Source: Proteiniphilum sp. X52 (GTDB lineage: Bacteria; Bacteroidota; Bacteroidia; Bacteroidales; Dysgonomonadaceae). From it: a DNA stretch of 39,276 nucleotides. Shown here in pieces: positions 10,148 to 39,276 of this stretch. The stretch is taken from assembly GCF_003712195.1 (NCBI RefSeq), contig NZ_RDSD01000032.1, positions 1-39,276 of the forward strand, given 5' to 3'. Position 1 is the first letter of the stretch. The number at the start of each line of letters is the position of its first letter. The translations under genes and the position numbers were made by a program. Under the pieces are notes generated by a model that had not been told where the DNA came from, searched no databases, and saw only the letters and a list, made by a program, of their open reading frames with translations.

Positions 10148-10151
10148 AAGG

Positions 10152-11631: not shown

Positions 11632-11642
11632 CCTTATTAAGA

Positions 11643-11677: not shown

Positions 11678-11902
11678 GTTTTGTCTATTCGCGCAACATT
11701 TGCGTAACATTTATTAAAAAACCGCTGTTTGAGGGAAGGCCAACCAACCTCAGAAATAAATAGGGTTTTTAACCGTAATTGCGGATAGCAAACGTATAGC
11801 TTTGTGCAATCTGGGTACCAATCAATATTAAATCATTTGAACTAATCCTGTTGAACTACTTCATATCAGCCCGCGGGCAAATAAAATTTCAGAGGATGTT
11901 AT

Positions 11903-11910
11903 TATCTTTG
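11903..11910 (+). promoter_or_regulatory. -7 promoter box of the AraC-type regulator gene
   Basis: TATCTTTG ending 24 bases before the ATG at 11935. It lies inside the longest open frame of the gene (from a TTG at 11851) and so argues for the downstream start. Confidence 0.5.
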
Positions 11911-11934
11911 CGGATATTCACAAAATCCAATGAT

Positions 11935-12762: not shown

Positions 12763-12943
12763 GACGCTAAAGGGCAAATTGCACCTCCCGACAAAAAAAA
12801 TTGAGCCGTGGAACAAAAATGATTTGCTGCTTTCATCATAATTTCGCATTATGTGAAAACTGAAGTGACAAATAACATCACACCTTGGCCGGCATGGATG
12901 ATAAATACAAAATCATTTACCGGTCAATAAACGTTTATTTTTT

Positions 12944-13966: not shown

Positions 13967-14010
13967 TTGGAGTAGGTTATAGAATGGAACATTCAAAAAC
14001 ATCTCATTAT

Positions 14011-24669: not shown

Positions 24670-25161
24670 TTATTTGGACGAAACCTTGCCCGTCACCCAT
24701 TTCCAAAAAGTGGTGTATTTCAATTCCATTTTCGCGGGAAAAGCAAAGGGAGCCGGTATTTTAATGGCCTGCCCGTCGTGGTCCACGGGATAGATTTCTG
24801 TTTCGTACCAGCCTCCCGAACGGGAGACATGCAGCGTGTCGGGAACCTCATGGAAGAGGAAACGCACCGGCATGGGGCCTTCCACCGGAGGGGCGCCCGT
24901 GATGAAGGCGATGTCGTCCCGCCAATTCATCGCACGTTGCGGTATCCGGGCCGTATAATGCACCTTGCCCGCTTCATCCTGCGCGACGGCGACCTCCATG
25001 GAAATTTTCGGCTGGTAGGGGACAAACGCCGCAATGCCCGTCAATACTAGCAGCGAGGCTACGATCATGACGGTGCCGTACCGCACCAGCGCCGGCGGCA
25101 TCCGCCCGATAATGTTCCGCACCTTCTCGCTGCGCAGTTCTATTGACCTGTCTTCATCCAT
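24670..25161 (-). CDS. Short HlyD-like single-pass membrane protein of the peptide-export operon
   Basis: 163 aa. The N-terminal IELRSEKVRNIIGRMPPALV followed by one transmembrane helix (about 28-47) is like the start of HlyD/adaptor proteins found with bacteriocin exporters. The coiled-coil and lipoyl-like domains of a true HlyD are missing. About 110 periplasmic residues of predicted beta structure follow, with a YTARIPQRAMNWRD segment. It stands 46 bases after the C39-peptidase ABC exporter on the same strand, as the last gene of the unit. It is probably an accessory subunit of the exporter. No TolC gene is nearby. The family name is uncertain. Confidence 0.6.
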   Translation of the reverse strand: MDEDRSIELRSEKVRNIIGRMPPALVRYGTVMIVASLLVLTGIAAFVPYQPKISMEVAVAQDEAGKVHYTARIPQRAMNWRDDIAFITGAPPVEGPMPVRFLFHEVPDTLHVSRSGGWYETEIYPVDHDGQAIKIPAPFAFPAKMELKYTTFWKWVTGKVSSK

Positions 25162-25207: not shown

Positions 25208-27406
25208 TTAATTTCCCAGTTCCAACTGGTTTTTCACCAATTCGTAATATTTTCCCCGTTTGCGCGTGAGTTCCTCGTGCGTGCCGGTTTCGGCTATTTT
25301 ACCGGCATCCAACACTACAATCTGGTCGGCATTCTTCACCGTGCTCAGGCGGTGCGCCACCACGACCACCGTCTTGTCCCGGTAGAAGGCTTCGAGGTTC
25401 TCCACGATGGCGCGTTCATTGTTCGCGTCCAGCGAGTTGGTCGCCTCGTCGAGGAAGATGAACGGCGGGTTCTTGTACACCACCCGGGCGATAAGGATAC
25501 GTTGCCGCTGCCCCTGGCTCACCCCCTGACCGTCCTGGCCGATCTTCGTGTTGTAGCCCAACGGCAGGCGCTCGATGTCTTCGGCTATATTGGCTATGTG
25601 GGCGGCATACCGTAATCGTTCCACATCCACCTCGTCGCCCGCCACGGCGATGTTGCGGGCGATGGTGTCGGAGAACAGGTAGCCCTCCTGCATCACCGCC
25701 CCGCACTGCGTGCGCCACCAGGTGAGGTTGACTTCCTCCAGGTTGGTTGCTCCGACGGTGATCCGGCCCTCATCGGGAGCATAATAACCCAGCAACAGTT
25801 TTACCAGTGTGGTCTTCCCGCTGCCGCTCGCGCCCACGATGGCGGTCACCTTCCCCTGCGGTATAATCAGGTCGATGTTATCCAGCACATAGTCCGGCCG
25901 TGCGCCGTCGTATTTGAAGCAGAGGTGCTCAATACGGATGGAACGCTCCATGGGCAATGCCGACACGGTACGGTGCTCGTTCTCTTCGTTGCGCTGCGTG
26001 TGGATCTCGTTCATCCGGTCGAGGCTGATGCTCACGTCCTGCCACTGGTAGATGAAGTTCATGATCTGTTCCACGGGGCTGTTCAACTGGCCGATGATGT
26101 ACTGGATGGCCAGCATCATCCCCAGGGTAAGGTTTCCGCTTATGACGGCGGTGGCCGCCAGCACGGTGACCAGGATGTTCTTCAGCTCGTTGATCAGGAT
26201 GCCGCCCGCTTCCTGTCCCTGGCGCAGGTTGAGCGACTGCAGGTTCACGTCGAACAGGTCGGCCTGCACGTCCTCCCACTCCCAGCGCTTGCGCTGTTCG
26301 CATCCCTGCAGCTTGATTTCCTGCATGCCGGTGATCAACTGGTAGGTCACATTCCGGTTGATGCCCTGTTGCTCGAACATCCTGTAATCCAATATGCGCC
26401 GCTTTTTCAGGAATACCATGATCCACAGGCCATAGAGGATGCTGCCGGCGAGGAACACGGCGAAGATGGGCAAGTTGTATATGAACAACACGGCGGAGAA
26501 GATCACGAAGGTGAAGGCGGAGAACAGCACGGTGATGGTCTGGTTGGTGAGGAAGTTCTCGATGCGGCGGTGGTCTTCGATACGTTGCAGCAGGTCGCCC
26601 ATGAGCTTGGTGTCGAAGAACTTCATGGGCAGTTTCATCAGCTTGATGAAGAAATCGGAGATGAGGGAGACGTTGATGCGGGTGCTGATGTGCAGCAGGA
26701 TCTTGCGGCGGATAAAGTCGATGGCCGTGCGGCTGAACAGCAGCATCATCTGGGCGATAAGCACCAGCCAGATAAAGCCGATGTCTTTCCCGGAGATACC
26801 GGTATCTACGATGGCTTGTGTCAAGAAAGGAAAGACCAGTTGCAATATACTTCCGATAAACAAGCCTAAAATCAATTGCGTGAAAAAGCGTTTGTATTTG
26901 AGCAGGTATTTCCAAAGGAACTTCAGGCGGTTTTGCGTTGGGGCGGCATCTCCTTCCTGTTCATAAAAGATGCCGGTGGGTTCCAGCAGCAGGGCCACCC
27001 CTTTTTCCTCGCCACCCGTGCGGGTGCTGACCCATCGGTCGCAAAATTCTTCGCGGGTGTAGGTTAATAAGCCTTTGCCCGGGTCGGCAACCGAAATCTT
27101 GTACCCTTTCTTGTTTTTCCTTATCCCGTACACCACCACGAAATGCTCCTGGTTCCAGTGGACGATGCAGGGTAAGGGAGCTTTTTCCGCCAACCTGTCG
27201 AAGGTGAGGCGCCCTCCCACGGTTTTAAATCCTATCTTTTCTGCCGCACGGCTGATACCCAGCAGTGAGACGCCGTCGCGCCCGATAAAGCAGTTTTCGC
27301 GCAAGTGCTCCAGGGTGTGGCACTTGCCGTAGTGTTCGGACACCATACTCAGGCAGGCGGGACCGCAGTCCATCGCGTCGGGTTGTTTGGTGAAAGGGAA
27401 GAACAT
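25208..27406 (-). CDS. Peptidase-containing ABC exporter (C39 peptidase, PCAT) for double-glycine peptides
   Basis: 732 aa. Residues 1-130 form a C39 cysteine peptidase: Q8, catalytic C14 in MDCGPACLSM, H88 in EHFVVVYGI and Asp in VADPGKG. A six-helix transmembrane domain (about 165-450) precedes the ATPase with Walker A GASGSGKTT (about 522), signature SQGQRQR and Walker B PPFIFLDEATNSLD. Such transporters cut leader peptides after GG and pump the core across the inner membrane. Both precursors in this window end their leader in IKGG. The gene is GC-rich, unlike the barrel, maturase and precursor genes upstream. It starts only 5 bases after the first barrel gene. Its first codons recur twice elsewhere in the island as scars. 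Confidence 0.95.
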   Translation of the reverse strand: MFFPFTKQPDAMDCGPACLSMVSEHYGKCHTLEHLRENCFIGRDGVSLLGISRAAEKIGFKTVGGRLTFDRLAEKAPLPCIVHWNQEHFVVVYGIRKNKKGYKISVADPGKGLLTYTREEFCDRWVSTRTGGEEKGVALLLEPTGIFYEQEGDAAPTQNRLKFLWKYLLKYKRFFTQLILGLFIGSILQLVFPFLTQAIVDTGISGKDIGFIWLVLIAQMMLLFSRTAIDFIRRKILLHISTRINVSLISDFFIKLMKLPMKFFDTKLMGDLLQRIEDHRRIENFLTNQTITVLFSAFTFVIFSAVLFIYNLPIFAVFLAGSILYGLWIMVFLKKRRILDYRMFEQQGINRNVTYQLITGMQEIKLQGCEQRKRWEWEDVQADLFDVNLQSLNLRQGQEAGGILINELKNILVTVLAATAVISGNLTLGMMLAIQYIIGQLNSPVEQIMNFIYQWQDVSISLDRMNEIHTQRNEENEHRTVSALPMERSIRIEHLCFKYDGARPDYVLDNIDLIIPQGKVTAIVGASGSGKTTLVKLLLGYYAPDEGRITVGATNLEEVNLTWWRTQCGAVMQEGYLFSDTIARNIAVAGDEVDVERLRYAAHIANIAEDIERLPLGYNTKIGQDGQGVSQGQRQRILIARVVYKNPPFIFLDEATNSLDANNERAIVENLEAFYRDKTVVVVAHRLSTVKNADQIVVLDAGKIAETGTHEELTRKRGKYYELVKNQLELGN

Positions 27407-27411
27407 TTTTT

Positions 27412-29715
27412 CTATAGTCTATTTATTTCATTGGTTGCACTTTGGCCTTTATACTTACTCCTTGACGGATTGAACTTATATATAATCTGCAAATTTATTC
27501 CTCTAAGATCTGCATCATTCCATTTATTAAAATGTAGAGAAGATGTAGTCATGTCCCACTCTTCTAATGCTGTTCCAAATAAATCCGTTACACTGAATGT
27601 AAGATCCACTTTGTCTTTCAAAATAGATTTATTTAATTTTAAATCTGTCCTAAAGGATGATTTGTGCATTTGTAAAGAATTATGTCCCTTTAGGTTCCCC
27701 CGAATATTTAGTATAAAGTTAAAATCATTAGGAAGTTGAATAATGTTTCCCCAGCGATAAAAGCAATATGGACGATTATAGTTCACATCTTCATACCTTA
27801 AATATTGCTTATTTACACCAAATTCAAAAGCTGGCCTCCATCGACCATATGTTGGCGTAAAACTGATATTTGCATCCAATCGCTCACTATTATCCAAGTT
27901 TCGCATAGTAAATAGTGCAATATCTTCTTTATCTTTAAATCGCTCTATTACAAATAATAAATTATCATTAATCTTACTATAGGATATTTCCATTTGTAGA
28001 TCCTTCCATCCGAAAAGATATGTAAGACTGTTAGTGAACATTGGTTTTAAAGATGGATTCCCACCTTCGTATAAATAGGGATCATTATATGAGACATCAC
28101 TTCTCAAATTGAAGTAGTTAGGACGTCTAACAGTTGTTCGGTAACTTAAATTCATTTTTATATTGTTAACTTGATAAGACAGAGACAGGTTGGGAAACCA
28201 ATTATTATAGATACGACTTTGATCTTTCTTAAATTCATCATTATAATAATATTTAAAGTCTATATGCTCATACCTCATTCCTATATCCAGCAAAAGAGCG
28301 TTTAAAGTGTATTTGTACGACAAGAAACCTGCAAATAATTCTTGTTTTGCCGTGCTGGTATTGGATGGTAATTCTTCGGCAATTTCTTTATTACGCATTT
28401 CGAATTTTTGATTATTACATGTAGAAGAACTTTCAGCTCCAAATAATAAATCAGCTCCAAATAAAGATATCGACATTTGAATTTTCCCCGCATATAAAGA
28501 GTAATTTCCTTTATTCGTACTGTTGACTAATATTGACTCATGAGTTTCGCTATCTTCATAATCTGAGGATTGAGAGTTCTTATTAGATCCATTAACATAA
28601 TCAAAATCAAAACGTAAGTCGGTCTCCTCTTTTAATTTCTTGTAGAAGTACGCATTTAAGTAATCTCGACGAGTTTTCCTGCTCAATACCATTTGAGAGT
28701 GAAAATTCTTATCATTCAGGTCATTAATATAATGAAAGGTATTTCCTTCCAGATCTCCTTTAATTTGTGGTCTTTGAGAAAAACTATAACGTATTCCTGT
28801 AGATAGATTAGGAGAAGAAGAATAATTCACTCCCGTTATTGCCTCCCAATAATTTTCTGAATATTTCATTACTCTTTCATTATTAGCAATATAAGTCGAT
28901 CCAGAGGTTAGTACAGATTGATCTTTTTGATTTTGCCTGAAAACGGTTTTGTCATAACTTAATTTGAGGAAATAATCAATATATTTTTTTCTCAAATCAA
29001 GATCTAGGTACTCATAATGATCAAAGAGGCGTCTTTTACGAAATAAGGCATATAGAGAACCGCTCAATCCGTCATCTCTGGATTGTCGAGTAGAGATATG
29101 AATTACCGCACCAACCGATGAACTATATTCCGAACCTGGAGTTAAAATTACTTTTACTTCTTCAATATCAGAACTTTTCAGGTTTTTTAATTCATCATTA
29201 TCCTGTAACACGCGGTTGTTTATGTAAATAAGAGGTTCACCTCTTCCAAAGACAATAAATTTACCATCCTCCCCGCTCACGAATGGTAATTGTGCCAAAA
29301 CGTCATTGGCATTACCAAGACAACTTAAAACAGTATTCTCAATTCTGGTACTTAGACTGTTGTTTTCCATCCTGTATATAGGTCGATACGCTTTGACGAT
29401 TACTTCTCCAAGCTGCGTAGTGTCACTGAATAGAGTTACTTTTCCAACATTGTTTTGGGTAATGCGCATAAATTCAGTCTTATAACCAATCGAAGAAATT
29501 TTTAAAAAGGTATTTTCTTTTATTTTTGAAATAATCTCAAATTCCCCTCGCTTATTAGTTGTTTCACCCGCAATTAAGGATGAATCTTGGATAGAGTGTA
29601 ATGAAACATTTACAAATTCAATTGGTTGGTTCTCTACGTCTACAACTTTTCCTGATATTTGTGCATTTGCATACCCAAAATTACATAATAAAATAAAAAA
29701 TAGTAATTTCTTCAT
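27412..29715 (-). CDS. Outer-membrane beta-barrel protein, TonB-receptor-like, first copy
   Basis: 767 aa. Signal peptide MKKLLFFILLCNFGYANAQ, then a carboxypeptidase-regulatory-like domain (about 20-100, ISGKVVDVENQPIEFVNVSL). A plug-like domain follows (about 105-215, with GRGEPLIYINNRVL and VKVILTPGSEYSSSVGAVIH), and then a long Tyr/Asn-rich barrel. This is the PF14905-type (OMP_b-brl_3) arrangement. It is not SusC: no SusD partner and shorter. No TonB box is obvious. The gene is AT-rich, lies 28 bases after a radical SAM maturase and abuts the exporter. It could import, bind or release the modified peptide; direction is not decided by sequence. The C-terminus NEINRL is nearly the same as in the second copy. 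Confidence 0.8.
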   Translation of the reverse strand: MKKLLFFILLCNFGYANAQISGKVVDVENQPIEFVNVSLHSIQDSSLIAGETTNKRGEFEIISKIKENTFLKISSIGYKTEFMRITQNNVGKVTLFSDTTQLGEVIVKAYRPIYRMENNSLSTRIENTVLSCLGNANDVLAQLPFVSGEDGKFIVFGRGEPLIYINNRVLQDNDELKNLKSSDIEEVKVILTPGSEYSSSVGAVIHISTRQSRDDGLSGSLYALFRKRRLFDHYEYLDLDLRKKYIDYFLKLSYDKTVFRQNQKDQSVLTSGSTYIANNERVMKYSENYWEAITGVNYSSSPNLSTGIRYSFSQRPQIKGDLEGNTFHYINDLNDKNFHSQMVLSRKTRRDYLNAYFYKKLKEETDLRFDFDYVNGSNKNSQSSDYEDSETHESILVNSTNKGNYSLYAGKIQMSISLFGADLLFGAESSSTCNNQKFEMRNKEIAEELPSNTSTAKQELFAGFLSYKYTLNALLLDIGMRYEHIDFKYYYNDEFKKDQSRIYNNWFPNLSLSYQVNNIKMNLSYRTTVRRPNYFNLRSDVSYNDPYLYEGGNPSLKPMFTNSLTYLFGWKDLQMEISYSKINDNLLFVIERFKDKEDIALFTMRNLDNSERLDANISFTPTYGRWRPAFEFGVNKQYLRYEDVNYNRPYCFYRWGNIIQLPNDFNFILNIRGNLKGHNSLQMHKSSFRTDLKLNKSILKDKVDLTFSVTDLFGTALEEWDMTTSSLHFNKWNDADLRGINLQIIYKFNPSRSKYKGQSATNEINRL

Positions 29716-29743
29716 TTGTAAGATGGGTTACATTATTTTATGA

Positions 29744-31123
29744 CTACCTCATTTCAAAATCTTTTTCCTTTTCGAGGAATGTTTTCCACAAGATAGTATT
29801 CTGTCTAATTAAAGTAATCATCAATATCACTTTTTCTAAAAAGTTCTTTGTAATTTCACATCTGTCAGTTATTGGTTCATTAGTTAATTTTTCAGAGCTT
29901 TCGTCGTAAAACATCTGCAGAACACATCCTCCACATAAATTTTGTGCCCAACATTTATTGCACTTCTTATTATCTTTAAAATCAATGGGATAAGGTTGAT
30001 ATAATGATGGTGAATTGAAAATATTTTTGCCATTAATATTGCCTAGACTATGTTTATCCTTGCCATTCAGCATATGACAAGCATATATTGTTCCCTCTGC
30101 ACTTACAGCAAAAATATCATTAACTATTGGACACATAGGGATTTGTACTTTTCTTGTTATTGCATGAATAAAATTTCGGAATCCTAATGGAACATCGGTG
30201 AGATTATTAACAGAAACGCTTCTCTGATCTATATTCTGAGTACAAAAATTGTTTATATAATCAGTATACATATTCTTATCAACCGTTATTTGACCTTCAA
30301 TTTTAAAATTTTGATACATATGCTTTATGACATCTCTATATGAGTAATTTGCATCAATATGTGAATGAGTGTATGTAGATTCATATTGGACTAAAACTTT
30401 AGTTTCTTTCAGTATTGTCTGAATGAATTGTGCTATTCTCTCATAACTTCCTTTTCCATTTTTAAAGACTCTATTCGCATCATTAACATTTTTCGGTCCA
30501 TCTATACTAACCGTTACAATTGATATATTTTCTTTGATAAACTGAAGGATTTTTGGTGTTAATAGAGTACCATTAGTTATTATACCAAACATAGGAATAA
30601 ATGAAGATTTACCTTCATAATAATACTCTTTGAATTTTTTACAAATAAAATTCATAGCGTTAAGATTAAGCATAGGTTCTCCACCAAAAAAAATAATTTT
30701 ATCAACTCTATCAAACTGATTTATGCAAAAATTTACAAAATTTCTTGCAGTATCAATTGTCATCAATGATCTAGATTGATTATAATTTCCACCGTTAGCA
30801 TAGCAGTATTTACATTTCAAATTACAATCATTGGAAACATGTAATGTAATTCTTTCTATTGTTCTATTACGAGTATTATTTGAGGAGAGATTCTTTTTTG
30901 TTTTTGATTTACTAAAAGCTTTTTGTAAAGAATCCACTAATATATCCAATTGTCCTTCAGTACATTTGCACAAGCACATGATTTCTTTCGGACAAGTTCC
31001 TACTTTAAGAAGTTGTATAATTTTGAATTGTTTATCATTTAATGCCATAATATCATTGGTAGGATAATAATATGCAATTTTTTGTTCCTTACTTTCAATG
31101 AGATGCAGTTTATTAAAATCCAT
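29744..31123 (-). CDS. Radical SAM/SPASM peptide maturase, first copy
   Basis: 459 aa. Residues 1-85 resemble a PqqD-like recognition element (EQKIAYYYPTNDIMALND, FKIIQLLKVG) and contain an unusual cysteine run C44-x5-C50-x-C52-x-C54. The radical SAM cluster is C100-x3-C104-x2-C107 (CNLKCKYC), followed by FFGGEPMLN. The C-terminal SPASM part has CPIVNDIFAVSAEGTIYAC, CNKCWAQNLCGGC and DRCEI, enough cysteines for two auxiliary clusters. Such enzymes install thioether or C-C/C-X links in ribosomal peptides. The cysteine-rich 62-aa precursor lies 119 bases upstream with a hairpin between. This gives a likely substrate. Confidence 0.9.
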   Translation of the reverse strand: MDFNKLHLIESKEQKIAYYYPTNDIMALNDKQFKIIQLLKVGTCPKEIMCLCKCTEGQLDILVDSLQKAFSKSKTKKNLSSNNTRNRTIERITLHVSNDCNLKCKYCYANGGNYNQSRSLMTIDTARNFVNFCINQFDRVDKIIFFGGEPMLNLNAMNFICKKFKEYYYEGKSSFIPMFGIITNGTLLTPKILQFIKENISIVTVSIDGPKNVNDANRVFKNGKGSYERIAQFIQTILKETKVLVQYESTYTHSHIDANYSYRDVIKHMYQNFKIEGQITVDKNMYTDYINNFCTQNIDQRSVSVNNLTDVPLGFRNFIHAITRKVQIPMCPIVNDIFAVSAEGTIYACHMLNGKDKHSLGNINGKNIFNSPSLYQPYPIDFKDNKKCNKCWAQNLCGGCVLQMFYDESSEKLTNEPITDRCEITKNFLEKVILMITLIRQNTILWKTFLEKEKDFEMR

Positions 31124-31201
31124 AGTGTTTTAAATAATTTTAAAAATTTATACTTTTTTCAAAATATCTTTTCCCTGAATAAGGATGAAAAGATTTTAAA
31201 A

Positions 31202-31225
31202 GGAAGAAGGGAAATCCCTTCTTCC
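31202..31225 (-). terminator. Hairpin with T tract behind the first precursor gene (attenuator)
   Basis: GGAAGAAGGG and CCCTTCTTCC form a perfect 10-base stem with a 4-base loop, followed on the minus strand by TTTTAAAA. It lies 17 bases after the precursor stop and 79 bases before the maturase start. It probably keeps most transcripts short so that precursor exceeds enzyme. Confidence 0.8.
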
Positions 31226-31242
31226 TCAAATTAGGAAAAACT

Positions 31243-31431
31243 TTAGTAAGCTTTATCCAGCTCCTTACCTCCACAACTGCATCCAAAACCGAAGCATCCT
31301 CCTTCTTTAGGAGTTTCACTACCTCCCTTTATTTTAGAGAGATCTGAGAAATCTAGGGGTTCGATAGAGAACGAATTTACTCCCTTCTTACTCTCAAGTT
31401 GTTTTCCTTGTTTAAGTCTTTTAGGTTCCAT
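31243..31431 (-). CDS. Double-glycine leader RiPP precursor with Cys-rich core, first copy
   Basis: 62 aa. Leader residues 1-37 are charged and end LSKIKGG, the cut site expected for a C39 exporter. The core (38-62) contains GGCFGFGCSCGG with C46, C51 and C53, then KELDKAY. Size, the GG site, the cysteines and the following maturase-barrel-exporter genes identify a radical-SAM-modified natural product precursor, similar in outline to the in silico 'GG-Bacteroidales' precursors described by Haft and Basu. The modification is unknown; thioether links from the three Cys are plausible. The gene is separated from its maturase by a terminator-like hairpin and shares an upstream leader motif with the second precursor. 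Confidence 0.85.
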   Translation of the reverse strand: MEPKRLKQGKQLESKKGVNSFSIEPLDFSDLSKIKGGSETPKEGGCFGFGCSCGGKELDKAY

Positions 31432-31464
31432 AATCTTTAATTGTTTATTTTTTTAATTCTTTCC

Positions 31465-31525
31465 ATTCATTTCGCTTTCGGAATGACTTCGGAATTATTA
31501 TTCACTGAAATTCGATCAGATAACT
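31465..31525 (-). promoter_or_regulatory. Leader region conserved with that of the second precursor
   Basis: Plus-strand TCATTTCGCTTTCGGA at 31467-31482 and GATAACTATAT near 31518-31530 recur, in the same order and at similar distance from the start codon, upstream of the other precursor (39208-39224 and about 39254-39266). No TAnnTTTG box is seen here on the minus strand, so this could be a different type of promoter or an RNA leader element. Confidence 0.5.
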
Positions 31526-31650
31526 ATATCTTTTTCACGAAATATATCTATCGTGCATACCACAAACATCATAATTTTTGCCTGTTAGCTACTATTCTTC
31601 ACTGTTCGGGCGGCTTCCGGCAAAATCAGTCATCCCCAAACCCGTGGGTG

Positions 31651-31681
31651 TTTGAAATTACCGTGTGTTGTGTTATCTTTG
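31651..31681 (+). promoter_or_regulatory. Consensus rightward promoter with no coding gene behind it
   Basis: -33 box TTTG at 31651-31654 and -7 box TATCTTTG at 31674-31681, spacer 19 bases, a perfect match. It points away from the precursor gene and towards the 3' end of the DUF3244 gene, which is on the other strand. Confidence 0.7.
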
Positions 31682-31687
31682 CAGTGC

Positions 31688-31770
31688 CTTTTCTTGTAAG
31701 TTTAGTTAAACATTCGGGTTGATTGGTCTCAATTGGGTTGTTTCGCTTTCCTGGCAAGGGAAGGCTTTTT
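31688..31770 (+). ncRNA. Candidate small RNA of about 83 bases
   Basis: The consensus promoter at 31651-31681 predicts a start near 31688. A hairpin GCTTTCC (31745-31751) / GGAAGGC (31759-31765) with one G-T pair and 7-base loop, followed by TTTTT (31766-31770), is a good intrinsic terminator on the same strand. No reasonable reading frame lies between. The transcript would not overlap any coding region, but it lies between the DUF3244 gene and the first precursor. I do not recognise a known RNA family. Confidence 0.45.
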
Positions 31771-31858
31771 AATGTCCGTACTTACGGTTTCTGAGGCCGC
31801 CGGGACAAATTACGCAATCCTGTTCCGACAGTTATCATAACGGTCAGACGTATTCCGG

Positions 31859-32263
31859 TCAAATCTCAAAATCGCCATACATGGCGCCGCACCCGTTGGT
31901 GAACGCGATAGTGTATATTCCCGACGACAGCCCCGAAAGCGGGATAAACGCCTGTTGCTGCACAGAAGTATTTACCGTCGCCTCATATACCGTTTCGCCC
32001 ACCCCATTGGTGAGCGTGACCAGCAGATTGCCGACATCCTTGTGGAACAGGGCCATGATAATGTTGTCCCGCACTTCGGCCGTAACCACATCACCACCGG
32101 AACGAAGACCCGGCCCCGGATCCAGTTTCCCTTTCAAGTCGATTGATTCCGTATCAAGAATACCCTGGCTGTCGGGACAAGCAAATATCCCGCTATTCAC
32201 CGTAACCGGGAAAAACATCCATCCGGCACACAGTGCACACAATACGATTTTCTTCATTTTCAT
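31859..32263 (-). CDS. DUF3244 family exported protein
   Basis: 134 aa with signal peptide MKMKKIVLCALCAGWMFFPV ending near SGIFA. The remainder is one small beta-sandwich: VVTAEVRDNIIMALFHKDVG, NLLVTLTNGVGETVYEATVN, FIPLSGLSSGIYTIAFTNG and GAMYGDFEI. This matches DUF3244, short Ig-like or sorting-domain-like Bacteroidota proteins that are usually accessory genes. It is GC-richer than the neighbouring cassettes and has its own promoter. It stands between the two RiPP cassettes and could be a passenger or an inhibitor- or immunity-like protein; nothing in the sequence decides this. Confidence 0.72.
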   Translation of the reverse strand: MKMKKIVLCALCAGWMFFPVTVNSGIFACPDSQGILDTESIDLKGKLDPGPGLRSGGDVVTAEVRDNIIMALFHKDVGNLLVTLTNGVGETVYEATVNTSVQQQAFIPLSGLSSGIYTIAFTNGCGAMYGDFEI

Positions 32264-32291
32264 GATGGTACTTATTATGAAATTTCTGCCT

Positions 32292-32322
32292 CAAATCTAA
32301 ATAATAATTTTCTCTTGCGAAA
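32292..32322 (-). promoter_or_regulatory. Promoter of the DUF3244 gene
   Basis: On the minus strand a -33-like TTTC at 32322-32319 and -7 box TAGATTTG at 32299-32292, spacer 19 bases, end 28 bases before the start codon. Confidence 0.55.
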
Positions 32323-32346
32323 CAGGATATTGAGAGATACAAGAAT

Positions 32347-32589
32347 TTAACTACAGCCGTCGACATAATCATCTGATAACCAAAGACAATTACCATAAGG
32401 ATACAAGACGGTACAAAATTTTAACGAGTGAGGGCTGGGGCCCATCAATGACACACCATCGCGACCGATAAAGCAGTTCCGGCGCAAGTGCTCCAGCGTG
32501 TGGCGCTTGCCGTAGTGTTCGGACACCATACTCAGGCAGGCGGGACCGCAGTCCATGGAGTCGGGTTGTTTGGTGAAAGGGAAGAACAT
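32347..32589 (-). pseudogene. 5' fragment of the C39-peptidase exporter gene (scar 1)
   Basis: The first about 50 codons (32589-32440) are nearly the same as the full exporter: MFFPFTKQPDSMDCGPACLS against the exporter's N-terminus, with changes at A11S, C29R, E37R/N38 region and L49M. The catalytic Cys is kept. After GVSLMG similarity stops and an unrelated 30-residue tail runs to a stop at 32347. The fragment starts 3 bases after the second barrel gene, just as the full exporter follows the first barrel gene. It cannot encode a transporter. Confidence 0.88.
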
Positions 32590-32592
32590 AGG

Positions 32593-34953
32593 CTATAATC
32601 TATTTATTTCTTCTTGATTTCCAGATCTTTTATTGAAGTTTATTTTATCTACTCCAAAATTATATGATAAAGTCATTCTTATAAATGTGTCGTCTACAAC
32701 GTATTTGTGGCTCATTTTCATTTTGCCAATACTCATATGTTTTCTCTCTGAATTCGTATCAAATATATCTGATGCATAAATGTTAAGAACTAACTTATTT
32801 TTCAACATGGTTTTTTTTAATCCTACATCAAAACTCCAAAGATTCTCATACCAAGCGATATCAAAATCCCCAAGAATATAATAATTGTAACTTATAAATG
32901 GTGTGAAATTTAAAGGTAACGTAATGTCAGAGGTGTGTGTAAAGTAAATTGTTGGTTTCTTCATTAATTTCTCTTTTCCATGATCATTAATAATTAAATG
33001 AGGTTTTCGAAAACCAAGCGTCGTCGAAGTAGACCATTTTTGAAAAAAAACTTTCGTAAAACTCGAAGTAACAGAAAAATAGTGAGCTTTACTATAATTT
33101 GTAGAAATTATTTTAGTAACTAATGGATTGTTTTCATCTTGTACAAATGCAAAAAATATGGGATTTTTTCTATAAGAATAACTGAAATTTAGAAATAGTG
33201 ATTTATTATATGAAAACGATAAACCGTAATTTGTAGAAATTGTTGGTTTTAGTTCTGGGTTACCTTGTGAGTATGTATATTCATCAAAATAATATATCGT
33301 GGGATTTAAAGTACTATAAGCTGGACGATTTATTCGTTTTGCATATGATAGAGATATACCGAATTTATTCTTGATATCCTTAGAATAGATGATGTTTGGA
33401 AAAAATGAAGTATGCGATCTGTCGATTATTTTTATATTATTATTCTCCCCAAATCCTTTATCATTTTCCATTCTTATCCCCGTTTGTAATATACCTGCTT
33501 TATTCAAATTAAAAGAAGCAGATACATATGCGGATAACAAATACTCTGCATAAGAAAAGTTATTATTGAAATCCTCGAATTCGATTTCTCTATTATCAAG
33601 AGAATTAAAAATACTATTACTCTTGTTTCTGACTTGGGAATATTTAGAGCCCAATCTAAAAGTGATTAATCTATGAATAGGATTTGAATAATCTATTTTT
33701 AAAGAATAAATATCAAATTTTATTTTATTAAGATTCTCATAATCATCATGAATGGTTTCATTTATAAATAAGGTATTGTCCTTATTTTTTCGTATGGTAT
33801 GGTCAGCTAGAACATCAAGTGAATGCCCTACCGAATCAATATTCAAGCGATAATTTAAGTTTAAAGTATTTTGGAAATTGCGTCCATTCCCATGTGATAA
33901 TGTTTTTAATGGGTTTTCTGAAAAATCTATTATATTATCAGTCCTACTGTCTTGTTTATTGTTCGAAAACCAGCCTATTAACTGAGCTCCTATTTTATGT
34001 TTCCATGAAAGATCCCATGTATTTCCTAAGATATAATTAACAGTGTTCCTCTTATTAAAGTTTTCTTTAGAATAATCCATGACTGTTTTATCTGTTTCAG
34101 CAGTAGTTTCTCTTAAAAAAGTCTCTTTTGATTTGCTGTTATTTTTATTAAAGAAAACACTTAAATAGGTGGTATTTTCCCCATGTATCGCATTTAATTC
34201 TCCACCTAATAATTCACTAAATCTGTCGCTATAACTTACTTGCGTTCTTACACTTCCACTTAGTTTATTAAGGGTATTTGTTTTAGTATATATATGAATA
34301 ACAGAATGTCCCGTGGCATCATATTCGGCCGTTGGGTCTATGATAACTTCTACTTTCTTTACGTTCGAAGAGTTTAAAATTCGAAGTTCATCATTAGAAC
34401 GTATTTGTCGACCATCTATGAAAATAACCGCATTATCTTTACCTGCCACAGTGATGTTATCTGAGGCATCAATAATCAGCATAGGTATTCTTTTTAGTAC
34501 GTCTATACTCGTCCCCAAATCACTTAAAATCGTATTTTCTGTATTCACTATTATTTTTCCATTCTCATTTCTAAAAGTCGGGCGTTTTGCTGTAATTATT
34601 ACCTCATCTAATTGTTGAGTATCAAGCACTATATTTTTCAGAAAAATATCTGTTCTTTGACTATTAAATTTTATGGGAATATTTGTTTGTTTATACCCTA
34701 AAGCTGTAATATTGACTATAATCTCAGATTCTTCAATACTGAACATTTCAAAATATCCATCATAGAATCCTCCACCTTTGATAAATGAGGAATCTGGATT
34801 TAATATGGTTATGTTGACATATTCTATAGGAATTGAATCAGAGTCAATTATATAGCCTTTTATAGTGTTTTGTGCTAGAATGGGTTCACTAGATAACACA
34901 ATTTTAAACAAGAGTAGGAGTAGTGGTACTATTTTGCATTTTCCTTTTTCCAT
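32593..34953 (-). CDS. Outer-membrane beta-barrel protein, TonB-receptor-like, second copy
   Basis: 786 aa. Signal peptide ending PILAQ, then a carboxypeptidase-regulatory-like domain (IKGYIIDSDSIPIEYVNITI), a plug-like domain (KDNAVIFIDGRQIRSNDELR, VKKVEVIIDPTAEYDATGHS) and a Tyr/Asn-rich barrel. The C-terminus EEINRL matches the first copy's NEINRL. The architecture is the same as in the first copy, with clear but moderate similarity. It is AT-rich. Its first 50 bases overlap the end of a broken maturase gene, and a 150-base piece of the exporter gene follows it. It therefore belonged to a complete cassette whose precursor and most of whose maturase are gone. It appears intact. Confidence 0.8.
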   Translation of the reverse strand: MEKGKCKIVPLLLLLFKIVLSSEPILAQNTIKGYIIDSDSIPIEYVNITILNPDSSFIKGGGFYDGYFEMFSIEESEIIVNITALGYKQTNIPIKFNSQRTDIFLKNIVLDTQQLDEVIITAKRPTFRNENGKIIVNTENTILSDLGTSIDVLKRIPMLIIDASDNITVAGKDNAVIFIDGRQIRSNDELRILNSSNVKKVEVIIDPTAEYDATGHSVIHIYTKTNTLNKLSGSVRTQVSYSDRFSELLGGELNAIHGENTTYLSVFFNKNNSKSKETFLRETTAETDKTVMDYSKENFNKRNTVNYILGNTWDLSWKHKIGAQLIGWFSNNKQDSRTDNIIDFSENPLKTLSHGNGRNFQNTLNLNYRLNIDSVGHSLDVLADHTIRKNKDNTLFINETIHDDYENLNKIKFDIYSLKIDYSNPIHRLITFRLGSKYSQVRNKSNSIFNSLDNREIEFEDFNNNFSYAEYLLSAYVSASFNLNKAGILQTGIRMENDKGFGENNNIKIIDRSHTSFFPNIIYSKDIKNKFGISLSYAKRINRPAYSTLNPTIYYFDEYTYSQGNPELKPTISTNYGLSFSYNKSLFLNFSYSYRKNPIFFAFVQDENNPLVTKIISTNYSKAHYFSVTSSFTKVFFQKWSTSTTLGFRKPHLIINDHGKEKLMKKPTIYFTHTSDITLPLNFTPFISYNYYILGDFDIAWYENLWSFDVGLKKTMLKNKLVLNIYASDIFDTNSERKHMSIGKMKMSHKYVVDDTFIRMTLSYNFGVDKINFNKRSGNQEEINRL

Positions 34954-35101
34954 AATGATACTCTAGAAATTTGTTTAAATTATCTTTTCTTGCACTACAT
35001 AGGTTGAAATTGGCTGCTTCCTTTTTATTCTTTATTCGATGTAAAGGACAACCTCCCATGCATATGGGTAATAGCAAACAGTCTTTACATTTTTCATCGT
35101 C
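34904..35101 (-). pseudogene. 3' remnant of a third radical SAM/SPASM maturase gene
   Basis: On the minus strand, the frame from about 35101 to the TAA at 34904-34906 reads DEKCKDCLLLPICMGGCPLH, then NLCSARKDNLNKFLEYH and a short tail. The order CxxC...CxxxC...C is the SPASM end of a peptide maturase; the second maturase in this window has CVICKYLPICMGMCP at the equivalent place. The radical SAM core is missing. The remnant is joined directly at about 35102 to a piece of exporter 5' end and overlaps the start of the second barrel gene by 50 bases. Confidence 0.82.
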
Positions 35102-35102
35102 G

Positions 35103-35167
35103 CACCATATTCAGGCAGGCGGGGCCGCGGTCCATCGCGTCGGGTTGTTTGGTGAAGGGGAAAGCAT
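35103..35167 (-). pseudogene. 5' fragment of the C39-peptidase exporter gene (scar 2)
   Basis: 65 bases match the start of the exporter gene (from its ATG through the DCGPACL codons to ATGGTG) with a few substitutions and a one-base loss near codon 5 that shifts the frame. It starts 3 bases after the third barrel gene, the same position as in the other two cassettes. Beyond 35103 the sequence switches to the broken maturase. Confidence 0.85.
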
Positions 35168-35170
35168 AAT

Positions 35171-37465
35171 TCATTTTGCTATCTGTTCATTTCTTAAACC
35201 ACTATCATTGTCTTGATTATTCATTTTTTGGTTTTCACGGATTGAGCTTTCCTTCTCGCTTGTGAATGAATAAACAAAACTTACGGTTATTAAATTTTGG
35301 AAATTGTTCCAAATTGTTTCCTCTCTAAATTTCAAAATATTACTATTTGAATAAGAAATAATCGGATTTGGATTATGAATATATTGTAAGGCAAATGTAG
35401 CTTGATTTTTAGTCCAAGACAATTCTCCAACATAATACGGCATTCTTTTCTCTATAAAATCTCCTTGCAGATTGGTGTAAGAACTTCCCCATTGTGAAAG
35501 AAGTTTGAAATTCTTATATGTGAAAGTGGCGCTTATAGAGAGCATTTTTGACCAATCATTGAATGAAGTTCCGTCGTTATTGGCAAATTGGCTATAACCC
35601 ACCGAAAAATAGGGCTGAATTGTTAGCCATTCAAGAGGCGTCCACCGACTGTTTATGTCCAATGCCGTGTACGACATACTTTCCTTTACATCCCACGTGC
35701 GGATTATCTCCGTTCCTTTATCTTGCAACGTAATTAAATAGGGATTTATGAGATAAGAATTTCTGGCGGACGTACTTAAAAAGAACTTCGGCAAGCTCAG
35801 TTGATATTGCAAGCGGTTATAAAGCGTATAGTACGGTTTCAGATTTGAATTTCCAATGCTTGCGTATTTATAATTCAGATAAATGGGGGTAGTTGTGAGC
35901 GAAGAAATATCGGGCGTGTTTGACTGCAAAAGACTGTTTAATCGAATAGATGATGATTTGCTTAATGCATAACTTGCCGATATGGATGGTTTTAAAACAG
36001 TAAATTGTTTTGCGGATTCTTCGCTTGATATGGATTGAATACTATGTTCTACACCAATTTCGGCGTTGTAGTTTATTTTATTTATACTTCCCGACAAGCC
36101 TGAATAGGCGTATAGTTTTTGCTGACTTAAACTATATTTGTTTCCTGAGTTATAAGTTTGTTTCAAATTTTTATAGAAATATCGTCCACCTATTGTAAAA
36201 TTTTGTTTTCTAAATTGCTTATTATAAAAGGCTTCACCAATTACGGAACCGGATGTGTTCTTTATGTCGTTTATATAGGTATAGTTTCCTTGTTCTCCGG
36301 GCAGATTACGTGAAAGTTCATTCATCGAGGTAGAATTGAAATGCGTTCCTACCACATTGGCGGTAATTTCCTGCTCATTTGGCAGTGTTTTACTGAAATA
36401 TAAATCGGTGGAAATGGAATTATAATTACTTTTCAGTAATTTGGATGCTTCTCCGATAATAGGCTCATTGTCATTTTCAATTACGGTAGTTTCCTGCGTG
36501 TGGTTTTCTTTTCCCGGATTTATCCGATATGTCGTTTTCGCAGAAAATGTATAATTATTTTCTCTGTGATTGATGTAGTTTACTCTAAAAATATGATATT
36601 CCCCCTTGTAACTGCCGGGCAAACCTTTGTAGGTGTTTTTGTAATCCATGCCGTCCAATCTATACTCAAAATTCTGATTGATACGGTTGTCGTCGAGGTT
36701 TCTGTAATCAATAAAATAATTCAATGACAATTGATTGTGTTCGTTGTACCACTTGGCATTCACAGTGTTTGTTCCGTATCCTGTAGTAAACGAGTTTTTA
36801 GTATTAATCATTCCACTAAAACCCGATGCGTCGGGTGTTCTCGTAATTACGTTGATAACAGCTCCGGCATTCAAATTGGCATAACGAGCAGGAGGTTGTG
36901 TGTAATGCTCTATCCTGCGAACATCTTGTGGCTGTATAGACATCAGTTCCTGCTCCGATGCGTTGGTTCCGTTTATCAGAATGATGATTTTTTGATTATC
37001 AACGGTTTCTAATACATTAGAAAGAACGTTTAATCTAAATTGGGGCATTTGTCCAATGGCTGATAACGCTGATGCCGATTTTTCTTTAATAGATGCCGGA
37101 ATGATCAGATTATCTTTAGAACCAAATGATTGTATGATTTGTGCCGATACTGTAATTTCACTCAACTGCGTACTTGAAGCATTGAGAACAATGGTTTGAA
37201 ATGGTTTGGTAGCAACAATTTCAGGACTATACCCAATCATTGAGAATTTTAAAAAAGTATTTTCCACATCGTTCTCAAATATTGTAAAATTACCTAAACT
37301 ATCCGTAACCGTTCCTTTTTTCAAAATAGAATCAGGTAATGAATATAATGCCACATTAACGTATTCTATAGGTATAGAATCCGAATTTTTTACAATACCT
37401 GTAATTTGTGCATTTAAAATTACAGTGTAAATAAAAAAGAAAACCAAATATCCTACCTTTTTCAT
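35171..37465 (-). CDS. Outer-membrane beta-barrel protein, TonB-receptor-like, third copy
   Basis: 764 aa. Signal peptide MKKVGYLVFFFIYTVILNAQ, a carboxypeptidase-regulatory-like domain (ITGIVKNSDSIPIEYVNVAL), a plug-like domain (ETVDNQKIIILINGTNASEQ, VRRIEHYTQPPARYANLNAG) and a barrel. It shares SIPIEYVN with the second copy and the overall layout with both. It ends RNEQIAK instead of EINRL. It follows the second maturase by 39 bases and is followed by the short exporter scar. The role is likely the same as for the other copies: receptor or outer-membrane partner of its cassette's peptide. It is slightly less AT-rich than the second copy. Confidence 0.8.
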   Translation of the reverse strand: MKKVGYLVFFFIYTVILNAQITGIVKNSDSIPIEYVNVALYSLPDSILKKGTVTDSLGNFTIFENDVENTFLKFSMIGYSPEIVATKPFQTIVLNASSTQLSEITVSAQIIQSFGSKDNLIIPASIKEKSASALSAIGQMPQFRLNVLSNVLETVDNQKIIILINGTNASEQELMSIQPQDVRRIEHYTQPPARYANLNAGAVINVITRTPDASGFSGMINTKNSFTTGYGTNTVNAKWYNEHNQLSLNYFIDYRNLDDNRINQNFEYRLDGMDYKNTYKGLPGSYKGEYHIFRVNYINHRENNYTFSAKTTYRINPGKENHTQETTVIENDNEPIIGEASKLLKSNYNSISTDLYFSKTLPNEQEITANVVGTHFNSTSMNELSRNLPGEQGNYTYINDIKNTSGSVIGEAFYNKQFRKQNFTIGGRYFYKNLKQTYNSGNKYSLSQQKLYAYSGLSGSINKINYNAEIGVEHSIQSISSEESAKQFTVLKPSISASYALSKSSSIRLNSLLQSNTPDISSLTTTPIYLNYKYASIGNSNLKPYYTLYNRLQYQLSLPKFFLSTSARNSYLINPYLITLQDKGTEIIRTWDVKESMSYTALDINSRWTPLEWLTIQPYFSVGYSQFANNDGTSFNDWSKMLSISATFTYKNFKLLSQWGSSYTNLQGDFIEKRMPYYVGELSWTKNQATFALQYIHNPNPIISYSNSNILKFREETIWNNFQNLITVSFVYSFTSEKESSIRENQKMNNQDNDSGLRNEQIAK

Positions 37466-37504: not shown

Positions 37505-38836
37505 TTAGAATCTTACATTAAACTCAGATTTCCTTGTGATCGAATTTTCATATTCGTTATCTATAAAGTTTTTTAACATTTTGTTTATTGACATATCTAA
37601 GGAATCCATTTTACAATAAAATTTGGTTTTGTCTTTTTTGTCATAATTACGCGGGCACATTCCCATGCAGATTGGTAGATATTTACAAATTACACATCGC
37701 TGGTTCATATTTACATGAAAATCTTTTTCAAAATTATCACGCCAAACTATTTGTCCATTATCTTGTAAAACTCCTGGCGGATTTTTACTAAATAAGTCAT
37801 CATGTGCCGTACATTTTACAATCGTCCCGTCATAATTTATAGCATTATAATGACTCTTTTCTACGTAGCATGTAATAAAATTATTTATTAAATTCAACCT
37901 TTGAACATTGTAACCCGCATCTTGAAAGCCATCCATTAATTCATATAAATTGAATTGTATATCTTTATCTGTTTTCTCTTGCCAAACTTTTCTAAATAAT
38001 ATCAAGATTCGCCTCCTGACATTTTCATTTACATGAGAATTTATTTGTTCAATAATATCTGCATCTAAATTATGCTTGGTGTAGTTAATTCGCAACAATA
38101 TCTGTAAATCATCTTTCATGTTTAGTAGGTTATTTATGTTGCTCAATGTGGTGTCAAAAGCAGAATTTGCATCGTCTTGATACTTAACAGAATTGTGTAA
38201 ATCTCGTTTGCCATCGAGCGTAATATGAAATCTACTAAAATTCAGAATATTTAAGCTGGACAATAATTCTTCTTTTATTAAGAAACCATTAGTTGTGGCA
38301 GTATTATAAAATGGGATATCTGCTTTTTCACAAGCAGTTAAAGCATATTCAGAGATGGGTACTATCACTTCTTTAAAAAACATAAAAGGCTCACCCCCAA
38401 ACCATTCTATATGGAGTGATAATATTTTATCATGCTTTATTTTATAATCAATGTGGTTTTTTATTTTTTGTATCGTGGATTCCGACATCACAGAAGGAAT
38501 ATGATCTTGGATGCAATACCAACACTTAAAATTGCAATTTAAAGTAGGTAAAATAATAAGAAAATAATCTTTCGATTGGATACTTTCTTGTCGTTTTTTT
38601 TTAATCAACTCGAATTCGTCCATACTATTATCAATCAAAAAACCTTTAGTTTTTAGATTCTCATAAAGTTTTGGTAAAAGAATTTTCATTTCACTAATTT
38701 TATAGGGATCACAGATAACTTCCTCTAACTTTTTACCCAAGTTCCTTTCTATTCGGAAGAAAGTTTTTTTTAATCCTTGAAACCAATAAGAATAATTGTC
38801 GTCGTAGAAAATATAATTATATTTACTTTTTTTCAT
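37505..38836 (-). CDS. Radical SAM/SPASM peptide maturase, second copy
   Basis: 443 aa. Residues 1-90 form a recognition-type N-domain without the cysteine run seen in the first copy. The radical SAM cluster is C101-x3-C105-x2-C108 (CNFKCWYC), followed by IEWFGGEPFMF. The SPASM region has CYVEKSHYNAINYDGTIVKC and CVICKYLPICMGMCP, with a final FYCKM. It should modify the 51-aa precursor encoded 189 bases upstream. It differs strongly from the first maturase in sequence, so the two cassettes probably make different products. The broken third maturase is closer to this one. Confidence 0.9.
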   Translation of the reverse strand: MKKSKYNYIFYDDNYSYWFQGLKKTFFRIERNLGKKLEEVICDPYKISEMKILLPKLYENLKTKGFLIDNSMDEFELIKKKRQESIQSKDYFLIILPTLNCNFKCWYCIQDHIPSVMSESTIQKIKNHIDYKIKHDKILSLHIEWFGGEPFMFFKEVIVPISEYALTACEKADIPFYNTATTNGFLIKEELLSSLNILNFSRFHITLDGKRDLHNSVKYQDDANSAFDTTLSNINNLLNMKDDLQILLRINYTKHNLDADIIEQINSHVNENVRRRILILFRKVWQEKTDKDIQFNLYELMDGFQDAGYNVQRLNLINNFITCYVEKSHYNAINYDGTIVKCTAHDDLFSKNPPGVLQDNGQIVWRDNFEKDFHVNMNQRCVICKYLPICMGMCPRNYDKKDKTKFYCKMDSLDMSINKMLKNFIDNEYENSITRKSEFNVRF

Positions 38837-39025: not shown

Positions 39026-39181
39026 TTATTCTACTTCATTAGCACTAATATCACATGCACAGCCTACCACATTATTTGGACATTCAATCTGAATGGTATC
39101 AAGTTCAGTATTTACTCCTCCTTTAATATCCAATAATTCTAGTTGGCTCAGCTCATCTTGATTGAAAAATTTATTCTCCAT
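39026..39181 (-). CDS. Double-glycine leader RiPP precursor with Cys-containing core, second copy
   Basis: 51 aa. The frame starts at ATG 39181 and ends with TAA at 39028-39026. Leader residues 1-22 end LELLDIKGG. The 29-residue core has ECPNNVVGCACD with C34, C41 and C43 and an acidic tail ISANEVE. Like the first precursor it has a leader ending IKGG, a core with three Cys ending in GCxC, a hairpin after the stop and a radical SAM/SPASM maturase next. Only the complete exporter 12 kb downstream could process it, unless another lies outside the window. Confidence 0.85.
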   Translation of the reverse strand: MENKFFNQDELSQLELLDIKGGVNTELDTIQIECPNNVVGCACDISANEVE

Positions 39182-39202
39182 TCTTACTCTAATTTTATTT
39201 TT

Positions 39203-39268
39203 CCTCTACTCATTTCGCTTTTCGAACTCCGCGCCGATGATTCATACAGCTTTATCTGATAGTTATAT
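39203..39268 (-). promoter_or_regulatory. Leader region conserved with that of the first precursor
   Basis: Plus-strand TCATTTCGCTTTTCGAA at 39208-39224 and TGATAGTTATAT at about 39255-39266 mirror the elements upstream of the first precursor. The window ends at 39276, so the promoter may be incomplete. Confidence 0.5.
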
Positions 39269-39276
39269 TTCTTTGT

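Follow-up and report, generated by a model that had tools for sequence, protein, structure and literature searches.

Clipped exporter starts behind stacked peptide cassettes in Proteiniphilum sp. X52: probable traces of cassette displacement in Bacteroidales

Why should the first codons of an exporter gene be repeated behind every barrel gene of a peptide locus? The question is raised by a 39,276-nucleotide stretch of Proteiniphilum sp. X52 (assembly GCF_003712195.1, contig NZ_RDSD01000032.1; here contig C32 of genome G000), which is called the window below and whose own coordinates are used throughout. Its minus strand carries, in this order, a conserved upstream element (A), precursor A, maturase A, barrel A, scar A, a maturase stub and barrel B, followed by scar B, a spacer with a DUF3244 gene, element C, precursor C, maturase C, barrel C, the exporter and an open reading frame (ORF) of 163 amino acids (aa); a scar is a clipped exporter start (Table 1). 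Judging by their sequences, the cassettes are of the ribosomally synthesized and post-translationally modified peptide (RiPP) type, each composed of a precursor, a radical S-adenosylmethionine (SAM) maturase and a barrel resembling TonB-dependent receptors. We consider it likely that the locus is a stack of such cassettes with a common exporter, built by the displacement of older cassettes by newcomers.

The exporter start (27250-27406) is repeated at 32433-32589 (157 nucleotides (nt), 90% identity; scar B), and part of it (27341-27400) at 35103-35162 (60 nt, 93%; scar A). The E-values of the two copies within their own genome (1.2e-55 and 2.2e-19, respectively) exclude chance. The observation made in the initial annotation, that an exporter start lies within 3-5 bases of each barrel stop, was confirmed (gaps of 5, 3 and 3 bases at 27412/27406, 32593/32589 and 35171/35167). 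The short copies reported there were also recovered as repeats, except that the ATG at 35167 is out of frame with the rest of scar A, since one base is missing near it. In scar A the exporter frame stays open for 22 codons before a stop, and DRGP is encoded at the position of the exporter's DCGP, whose Cys we take to be the catalytic Cys of the exporter peptidase, with the catalytic His and Asp presumably further downstream. Similarity to the exporter ends at codon 22 in scar A and codon 52 in scar B; with one copy also frameshifted and lacking the DCGP Cys, these sequences cannot be exporters. Of the precursor-maturase-barrel sets that had been proposed, A and C are complete, whereas the set behind 35103 is not: scar A continues directly into a maturase remnant (at least ~50 codons, reading as a SPASM Cys motif), which is followed by barrel B, and no precursor was seen for the barrel B set.

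Scars with a known counterpart continue into DNA of the upstream flank. The counterpart of the scar B spacer lies on contig C28 (locus L104) of the same genome, where it comprises the 3' end of a TPR/LuxR-type gene and the DNA behind it, before a further cassette, E, of which the precursor and maturase were seen before the contig end. C28 bears the upstream flank of the genus: several of its genes match locus L014, and most of these are also common to L015 and L016. Its copy of the DUF3244 gene lacks ~310 nt relative to the window (at L104 3728-3730). At the scar B joint, 1-2 nt are common to exporter and flank. Since the scars run on into upstream-flank DNA, one homologous crossover combined with one illegitimate join is suggested.

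Contig C45 (L012, 4755 bases) contains precursor D, maturase D and barrel D (the fourth barrel of the genome), followed by a scar whose joint with the spacer is the same as that of scar B; C45 and the window are 97% identical beyond the joint and 87% within the exporter part. The four barrels are 22-30% identical in pairs, except C and D (50%). Each end of C45 overlaps the window by exactly 77 identical bases (32195-32271 and 39200-39276, the right end of the window), which suggests that these are k-mer overlaps of the assembly, apparently broken at the repeats of the stack. C45 and the A-B part of the window, which lie between the same neighbours, may represent consecutive units of one array or two alleles.

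The retention of a truncated exporter copy behind a displaced set, as assumed in the initial annotation, can be followed in Tannerella, where the same cassette is found once beside the exporter and once beside a scar. T. forsythia ATCC 43037 (L034) carries cassette X directly before the exporter; T. forsythia OH1426 (L024) carries X, a 63-nt exporter-start scar, Y and the exporter; Tannerella sp. (L026) carries Y, a scar of ~80 nt, Z and the exporter. Positions 74-3287 of L024 correspond to 6850-10063 of L034 (96.4%; cassette X plus 63 nt of exporter), and 8189-13520 to 9993-15320 (91.5%; exporter and beyond), so that L024 has ~4.9 kb extra at exporter nt 63 and two copies of the exporter start. 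Similarly, L024 3432-8270 corresponds to L026 568-5405 (94.9%; Y plus 74 nt of exporter), and the exporter block of L026 resumes at 10007, behind the different cassette Z. The scar and flank of L026 and L034 are alike (88% over 669 columns) until ~12 nt before the L026 precursor ATG (windowed identity falls between offsets 630 and 680, with the ATG at 661), and the match resumes from exporter nt 7. Since both sides match, the slot between the flank and the exporter ATG holds Z in L026 and X in L034. A second contig of the L024 genome (L161) carries a scar with the spacer of L024 (94% over 108 bases), beyond which 164 bases are 85% identical to the end of a gene upstream in L034; it appears to be another exporter start adjoining upstream-flank DNA.

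In three cases one joint was found behind unlike cassettes: scars B and D in G000, rem2 and rem3 in Seramator, and L026/L034. Identity between rem2 and rem3 is at chance level before the ATG, 67%, then 87-100% through the scar and a short stretch of spacer, and then again at chance level. Once it has formed, a scar seems to circulate together with its flank as one unit of homology. The rem3 scar (L025 17617-17865), whose joint is that of rem2, follows an 874-aa barrel on the downstream side of the exporter.

The genus Proteiniphilum was compared through species representatives rather than strains of one species, and the exporter start was matched in 5 of its 39 genomes (G000 included; the match in G038 covers only 29 bases). 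Three loci, L014 (G013), L015 (G011) and L016 (G001; the same locus as L020), carry a single cassette before the same exporter, and tblastn with exporters found no scars in them. None of these cassettes is a copy of C or of one of the others, as anticipated in the initial annotation, and these relatives do not have the three-part arrangement. The closest exporters outside G000 are those of P. acetatigenes and Proteiniphilum sp. UBA5384 (93% and 92% at the protein level). The barrels of window C, L014, L015 and L016 are 25-29% identical, except window C-L014 (54%), and the maturases 22-43%, the highest value being that of window C-L015. A comparison of the 600 nt on either side of the exporter ATG, in nine pairs taken within Proteiniphilum and within Tannerella, revealed that homology is lost at the ATG: gapped identity upstream was 0.34-0.43 in eight pairs (shuffled control, 0.18-0.42), and downstream 0.80-0.85 in Proteiniphilum and 0.95-0.98 in Tannerella.

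Some cassettes are mosaics. Barrel C is related to that of L014 (54%) and maturase C to that of L015 (43%), not of L014 (25%); the L015 barrel is unlike that of C (27%), and neither part of L016 is related to C. The L014 maturase is closer to D (39%) than to C, and the L014 barrel region is 71% identical to L012 over ~2 kb, so a D-like cassette occupies the slot in L014 and lies behind a scar in G000. Since the cassettes combine shared parts in new ways, exchange seems to extend into their interior. A DUF3244-related gene is also found upstream of the single cassette of L014.

A tblastn search of the fetched loci with seven exporter queries identified 22 scars of the exporter start, distributed over 15 genomes of Bacteroidales; for 13 of them, belonging to 11 genomes, an exporter follows downstream on the same strand, 3.8-7.9 kb away. 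The raw result was 31 exporter starts without continuation, short search loci repeating others being left out; six were dropped as contig or locus edges (L138 11635, L141 15904, L144, L145 4-630, L147 and L148) and three as repeats of L025 (two of L145, one of L146). Two of the three scars of L139 are short and weak (29 codons, 53-56%). Of the exporters that follow counted scars, those of L066 and L137 are broken, that of L138 is truncated by the end of its contig, and that of L141 is read from L163. In L135, L137 and L138 other gene sets stand in front of the scars. The ends of the scars are scattered over the exporter from codon 22 to codon 152, the longest (L135, codons 5-130; L139, codons 5-152) covering most of the C39 domain. 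Thus, of the initial proposal of cassette exchange at the exporter's first codons, the exchange is supported and the narrow position is not; a fixed recombination site was rejected.

Loci L135-L142 were fetched for short frames in an N-terminal search and so cannot give a rate. This was estimated from 79 loci found with the exporter body (six patterns, which by inspection of the protein lie beyond codon 80), of which 63 have an exporter start and more than 4 kb upstream; weak matches in L071 (29%) and L077 (32%) were not counted as scars here. Where stacked neighbours (barrels or maturases) could be aligned, they were 23-28% identical, so stacked cassettes are not plain tandem duplicates, and plain tandem duplication of whole cassettes was rejected.

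These data can be joined in the following model. The working slot would lie between an upstream promoter-like element and the exporter ATG. A new cassette would arrive on DNA that also bears exporter sequence; one homologous crossover would take place inside the exporter, and the upstream end of the newcomer would be joined without long homology into the recipient exporter, between a few dozen and a few hundred bases away from the ATG. The resident cassette would thereby be displaced upstream and keep a clipped exporter start, beyond which the upstream flank of the newcomer itself would come. Spacer, DUF3244 and promoter-like element seem to arrive with the incoming piece, deletions occurring afterwards, and scars and flanks, as direct repeats, could then allow homologous recombination to swap, delete or reload cassettes; displaced cassettes may still be in use.

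Several observations weigh against this model. No match at all to the exporter start was detected in 34 of the 39 Proteiniphilum genomes, and an upstream scar was present in only 5 of the 63 loci (L024, L025, L026, L034 and L066; L045 has a scar downstream), so stacking is a minority state in this set; as scars were sought by exporter similarity, other kinds of joint will have been missed. Scars B and D differ by 13% in the exporter part in spite of their common joint, so a later exchange must be assumed. Parts are combined differently among cassettes (the L014 barrel, the L015 maturase), so exchange also seems to take place inside them, and the ninth pair of the ATG comparison (window-L014), whose barrels are related, is 0.61 alike upstream. 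Because the assembly broke at repeats, it does not prove how cassettes D and E are ordered relative to A-C. Because the compared genomes are species representatives and not strains of one species, insertion as opposed to loss is something we infer. Finally, tandem duplication and subsequent replacement could also have produced the upstream joint.

This last possibility is the main rival: the slot, from the 3' end of the upstream gene to the exporter start, would be tandemly duplicated by unequal exchange within a single lineage, and one copy then replaced through homologous recombination with foreign DNA. An exporter start joined to the 3' end of the upstream gene is what such duplication would leave (scar B, L161), and the recurrence of identical joints behind different cassettes also speaks for it. 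On the other hand, two steps are needed for each scar, stacked neighbours show the low identity given above, and scar A runs directly into the maturase stub, although a later deletion would explain this. We regard duplication with replacement as unlikely but as a serious competitor for the non-exporter end of the exchange.

It is improbable that entire operons with their exporters were inserted or duplicated, the surplus exporters later decaying by deletion to their starts. Decay does occur: frame-broken exporters exist (e.g. L066, L137, L143), and in G038 (L019 8666-9160) an internal deletion has reduced the exporter, behind a barrel end, to about its first 26 nt plus codons 577-732. However, decay should also leave middle and end pieces, and the partial exporter matches in the loci (at least 55% identity, under 400 aa) are N-terminal with two exceptions, codons 577-732 of G038 (seen twice, in L009 and L019) and the second half of the frame-broken exporter of L066; two further N-terminal matches, in L067, represent the edge of a locus and a broken exporter. 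In the order-wide samples of 393 genomes (two lists with different E-value limits, 1e-6 and 1e-9), the matches listed include at least 19 N-terminal ones in frames under 300 aa, 6 of them judged to be contig edges or frame breaks, versus at least 4 C-terminal ones (G053 and G252, which pair with an exporter start ~2 kb away, and G373 and G101).

Even less probably, the short copies are under selection as small peptidase-like proteins, translational couplers or regulatory RNAs. The ratio of nonsynonymous to synonymous divergence (dN/dS) of scars B and D, against the exporter and against each other, is 0.11-0.20, but most of this divergence may predate truncation; the long scars of L135 and L139 would suit a peptidase-like product, whereas lengths varying from ~22 to 152 codons, together with the frameshift and the lost Cys of scar A, do not, and the window copies gave no sign of being the conserved functional genes that the initial annotation had named as the alternative. 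Integron-like insertion at the exporter start by a site-specific recombinase or transposon is barely credible, since the break positions are scattered and no recombinase was present among the ten window proteins scanned, even though the same gene end is used repeatedly and the array of L136 has a tyrosine recombinase gene nearby (13643-14521, downstream of the stacked cassettes).

Dating by alignment of the copies, suggested in the initial annotation, gave identities to the exporter of 90% (scar B), 93% (scar A) and 87% (C45), no or little higher than the 86-87% between sister species, so nothing marks the window scars as recent, and a recent origin is not supported. Alternatively, a scar could derive from a different exporter allele. 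For the barrels of X and Y, dN/dS between displaced and slot copies is 0.14-0.20, which would fit use of these proteins, on a branch that the ratio does not distinguish. Synonymous divergence (dS) of the Tannerella exporters (L024, L026, L034) is 0.03-0.08 in codons 4-103 versus 0.07-0.51 further on, which may reflect constraint on codons or else a recent exchange; since the same was not seen in Proteiniphilum, it was not taken as a general mark of exchange.

The logic of stacking is already known from type VI secretion system (T6SS), contact-dependent inhibition (CDI) and Rhs loci. According to passages of Kirchberger et al. (2017, PMC5361080), a newcomer in the T6SS effector-immunity arrays of Vibrio cholerae displaces the old module and leaves its pieces, and the arrays are heterogeneous and non-duplicate; homology-facilitated illegitimate recombination, described for competent bacteria (PMC3240628) and the route that our data would call for, is discussed there, followed by spread of the arrays through homologous recombination. 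The same pattern is seen here: an old module lies behind a fragment of the entry gene and has an uninserted relative (L034/L024 and L024/L026), and neighbouring modules, at 23-28% identity, are not recent duplicates. In V. cholerae, as far as those passages go, the displaced parts are effector 3' ends and immunity genes, which come to lie in the 3' region, whereas in the Bacteroidales RiPP loci whole peptide cassettes appear upstream and the scar is the exporter 5' end. Excerpts on the orphan toxin-immunity modules of CDI and Rhs loci (Poole et al. 2011, PMC3150448; Koskiniemi et al. 2014, PMC3967940) state that these start with pieces of the main gene and that recombination with the main gene can activate them. 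Displaced modules are likewise tied to main-gene pieces in our loci, but the conserved piece belongs to the export machine, not to the toxin's own body, and the peptides of displaced cassettes might in principle still be exported by it in trans.

Integron cassette arrays are stacked as well, with the newest cassette nearest the fixed element. Our loci resemble them in this stacking and differ in having no common break position; no integron integrase was found among the ten window proteins scanned, and attC sites were not searched for. Integron and T6SS arrays are compared in a passage of PMC5361080. Bacteroidales RiPP clusters with the same gene kinds (GG-leader precursor, radical SAM enzyme, outer membrane protein and C39 peptidase ABC transporter, PCAT) are described in the sections consulted of PMC10352776; its main text contains none of the words truncated, duplicat* and recombination, which suggests that it gives no account of stacking or of exporter scars. 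The titles and abstract openings listed in searches of the open-access literature yielded no report of exporter scars in RiPP loci. As far as this literature shows, the new elements are the exporter-start scars and the displacement of whole RiPP cassettes, in at least 15 Bacteroidales genomes.

If displacement is correct, each scar would mark one replacement and show the preceding peptide system, a fossil record of cassette turnover that would arrange the puzzling half-clusters of Bacteroidales in historical order. One exporter is predicted to serve several unlike peptides, and cluster-mining tools may fuse unrelated cassettes or call scars exporters. Barrels without an intact maturase occur in three cassettes: window B, the 802-aa barrel of Seramator (rem1-rem2; its second barrel) and Y of L024, which has two barrels. 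Only tentatively, and with more doubt than belief, we suggest that the stacks are working libraries in which recombination at scar repeats reloads old cassettes onto the single exporter, and that maturase-less barrels are kept, in the manner of orphan siderophore receptors and orphan immunity genes, as orphan receptors or shields for the peptides of neighbours in which the cassette is still present. If displaced receptors are indeed retained by selection, the stacks would list the competitor peptides met by the lineage.

Table 1. Features of the cassette locus in the window.
Feature	Position	Strand	Basis
163-aa ORF 3' of the exporter	24670..25161	-	Related to 66 ORFs of the fetched loci
Full-length exporter, 732 aa	25208..27406	-	Pfam PF03412, PF00664, PF00005
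Barrel C, adjoining the intact exporter	27412..29715	-	PF14905, PF00593, PF13715; AlphaFold2 model and Foldseek
Radical SAM/SPASM maturase C	29744..31123	-	PF04055, PF13186
Precursor C, 62 aa, GG-type leader (IKGG)	31243..31431	-	Sequence; no NCBIfam family
Conserved element 5' of precursor C	31456..31484	-	Pattern with 6 mismatches
DUF3244 gene, in the spacer of cassette C	31859..32263	-	PF11589
Spacer beyond scar B	32239..32433	-	93% to L104 3728-3922 (contig C28)
Scar B, the exporter's first 157 nt, 90%	32433..32589	-	Repeat search
Barrel B, intact 786-aa ORF, without intact maturase	32593..34953	-	PF14905
Radical SAM maturase stub, SPASM end KCKDCLLLPICMGGCP, abutting scar A	34953..35102	-	Translation; Cys motif assigned by eye
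Scar A, exporter start, 93% over 60 nt	35103..35162	-	Repeat search; ATG at 35167 out of frame
Barrel A	35171..37465	-	PF13715 30.9 bits, just below the gathering score; alignment to other barrels
Radical SAM maturase A	37505..38836	-	PF04055
Precursor A, 51 aa, GG-type leader (IKGG)	39026..39181	-	Sequence; TIGR04149 15.0 bits, below the cut-off of 25
Conserved element 5' of precursor A	39199..39227	-	Pattern scan

As shown in Table 1, most genes could be assigned to families. The exporter combines in one chain the C39 peptidase (108.6 bits), ABC membrane (93.7 bits) and ABC ATPase (101.9 bits) domains, all above the cut-off, and is by this composition a PCAT; the 163-aa ORF behind it had no Pfam or NCBIfam match. 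TonB-dependent receptors have a plugged 22-strand barrel fold. An AlphaFold2 model of barrel C (15 sequences; predicted local distance difference test score 81, predicted template modelling score 0.73) had TonB-dependent receptors (PfeA, Cir, OprC) as its best Foldseek matches (probability 1.00, template modelling score ~0.5, root mean square deviation 8-15), which suggests a fold of this kind and hence cassettes that pair a peptide, a maturase and a receptor-like outer membrane protein. PF00593 was above the cut-off in barrels C and D and those of L034 and L026, and was not listed for A, B and the two of L024; no Plug family was listed for the eight barrels scanned. Precursor A was absent from the ORF list because it is shorter than the 60-aa cut. 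The precursors share the GG leader and fall outside the NCBIfam cut-off of TIGR04149 (25 bits): among seven scanned, D scored 21.4, L026 19.9, A 15.0 and E 13.5, and no match was listed for C, L025 and L034. The GC content is 0.56 in the exporter, 0.52 in DUF3244, 0.59 and 0.63 in the scars and 0.40 in precursor C, compared with 0.28-0.35 in barrels and maturases and 0.47 in bases 1-24000 of the contig.

The upstream element was sought with a 29-nt pattern, TTYCGAAAAGCGAAAYGARTRGAAAAGAA, composed from sites in L012, L034 and the window, in 1.5 Mb of sequence (window, L012, L104, L014-L098 and L161). With up to 6 mismatches it occurred 18 times (in the window, L012, L016, L025, L026, L034, L041-L044, L046, L063, L064, L066, L071 and L076), each time at 12-24 nt from the start of a downstream ORF whose product has a GG-type leader; a single mononucleotide shuffle of this 1.5 Mb contained none. 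The sites are not independent, as L016 and L020 are one locus and some Prevotella sites are identical. The element, which holds a small inverted repeat (TTCG...CGAA), is possibly a shared promoter or 5' leader element, and forms the second border of the slot in many cassettes, though not in every one. As a universal boundary it was rejected, since L104 (cassette E) gave no match and C matches with 6 mismatches.

Among plasmid records, the best match was from Prevotella nigrescens. Two Parabacteroides distasonis records were not used as evidence of transfer, being ordinary single clusters and apparently pieces of fragmented assemblies. Upstream of the cassette, response-regulator-like and kinase-like genes are found in L015 (7945-10404), L016 (8180-10649), L071 (300-2790) and L165 (2148-4530), where they are so annotated in L165, and L015, L016 and L071 add a small protein ending in IIEMKPL or IIKIQPL; these genes possibly serve peptide sensing.

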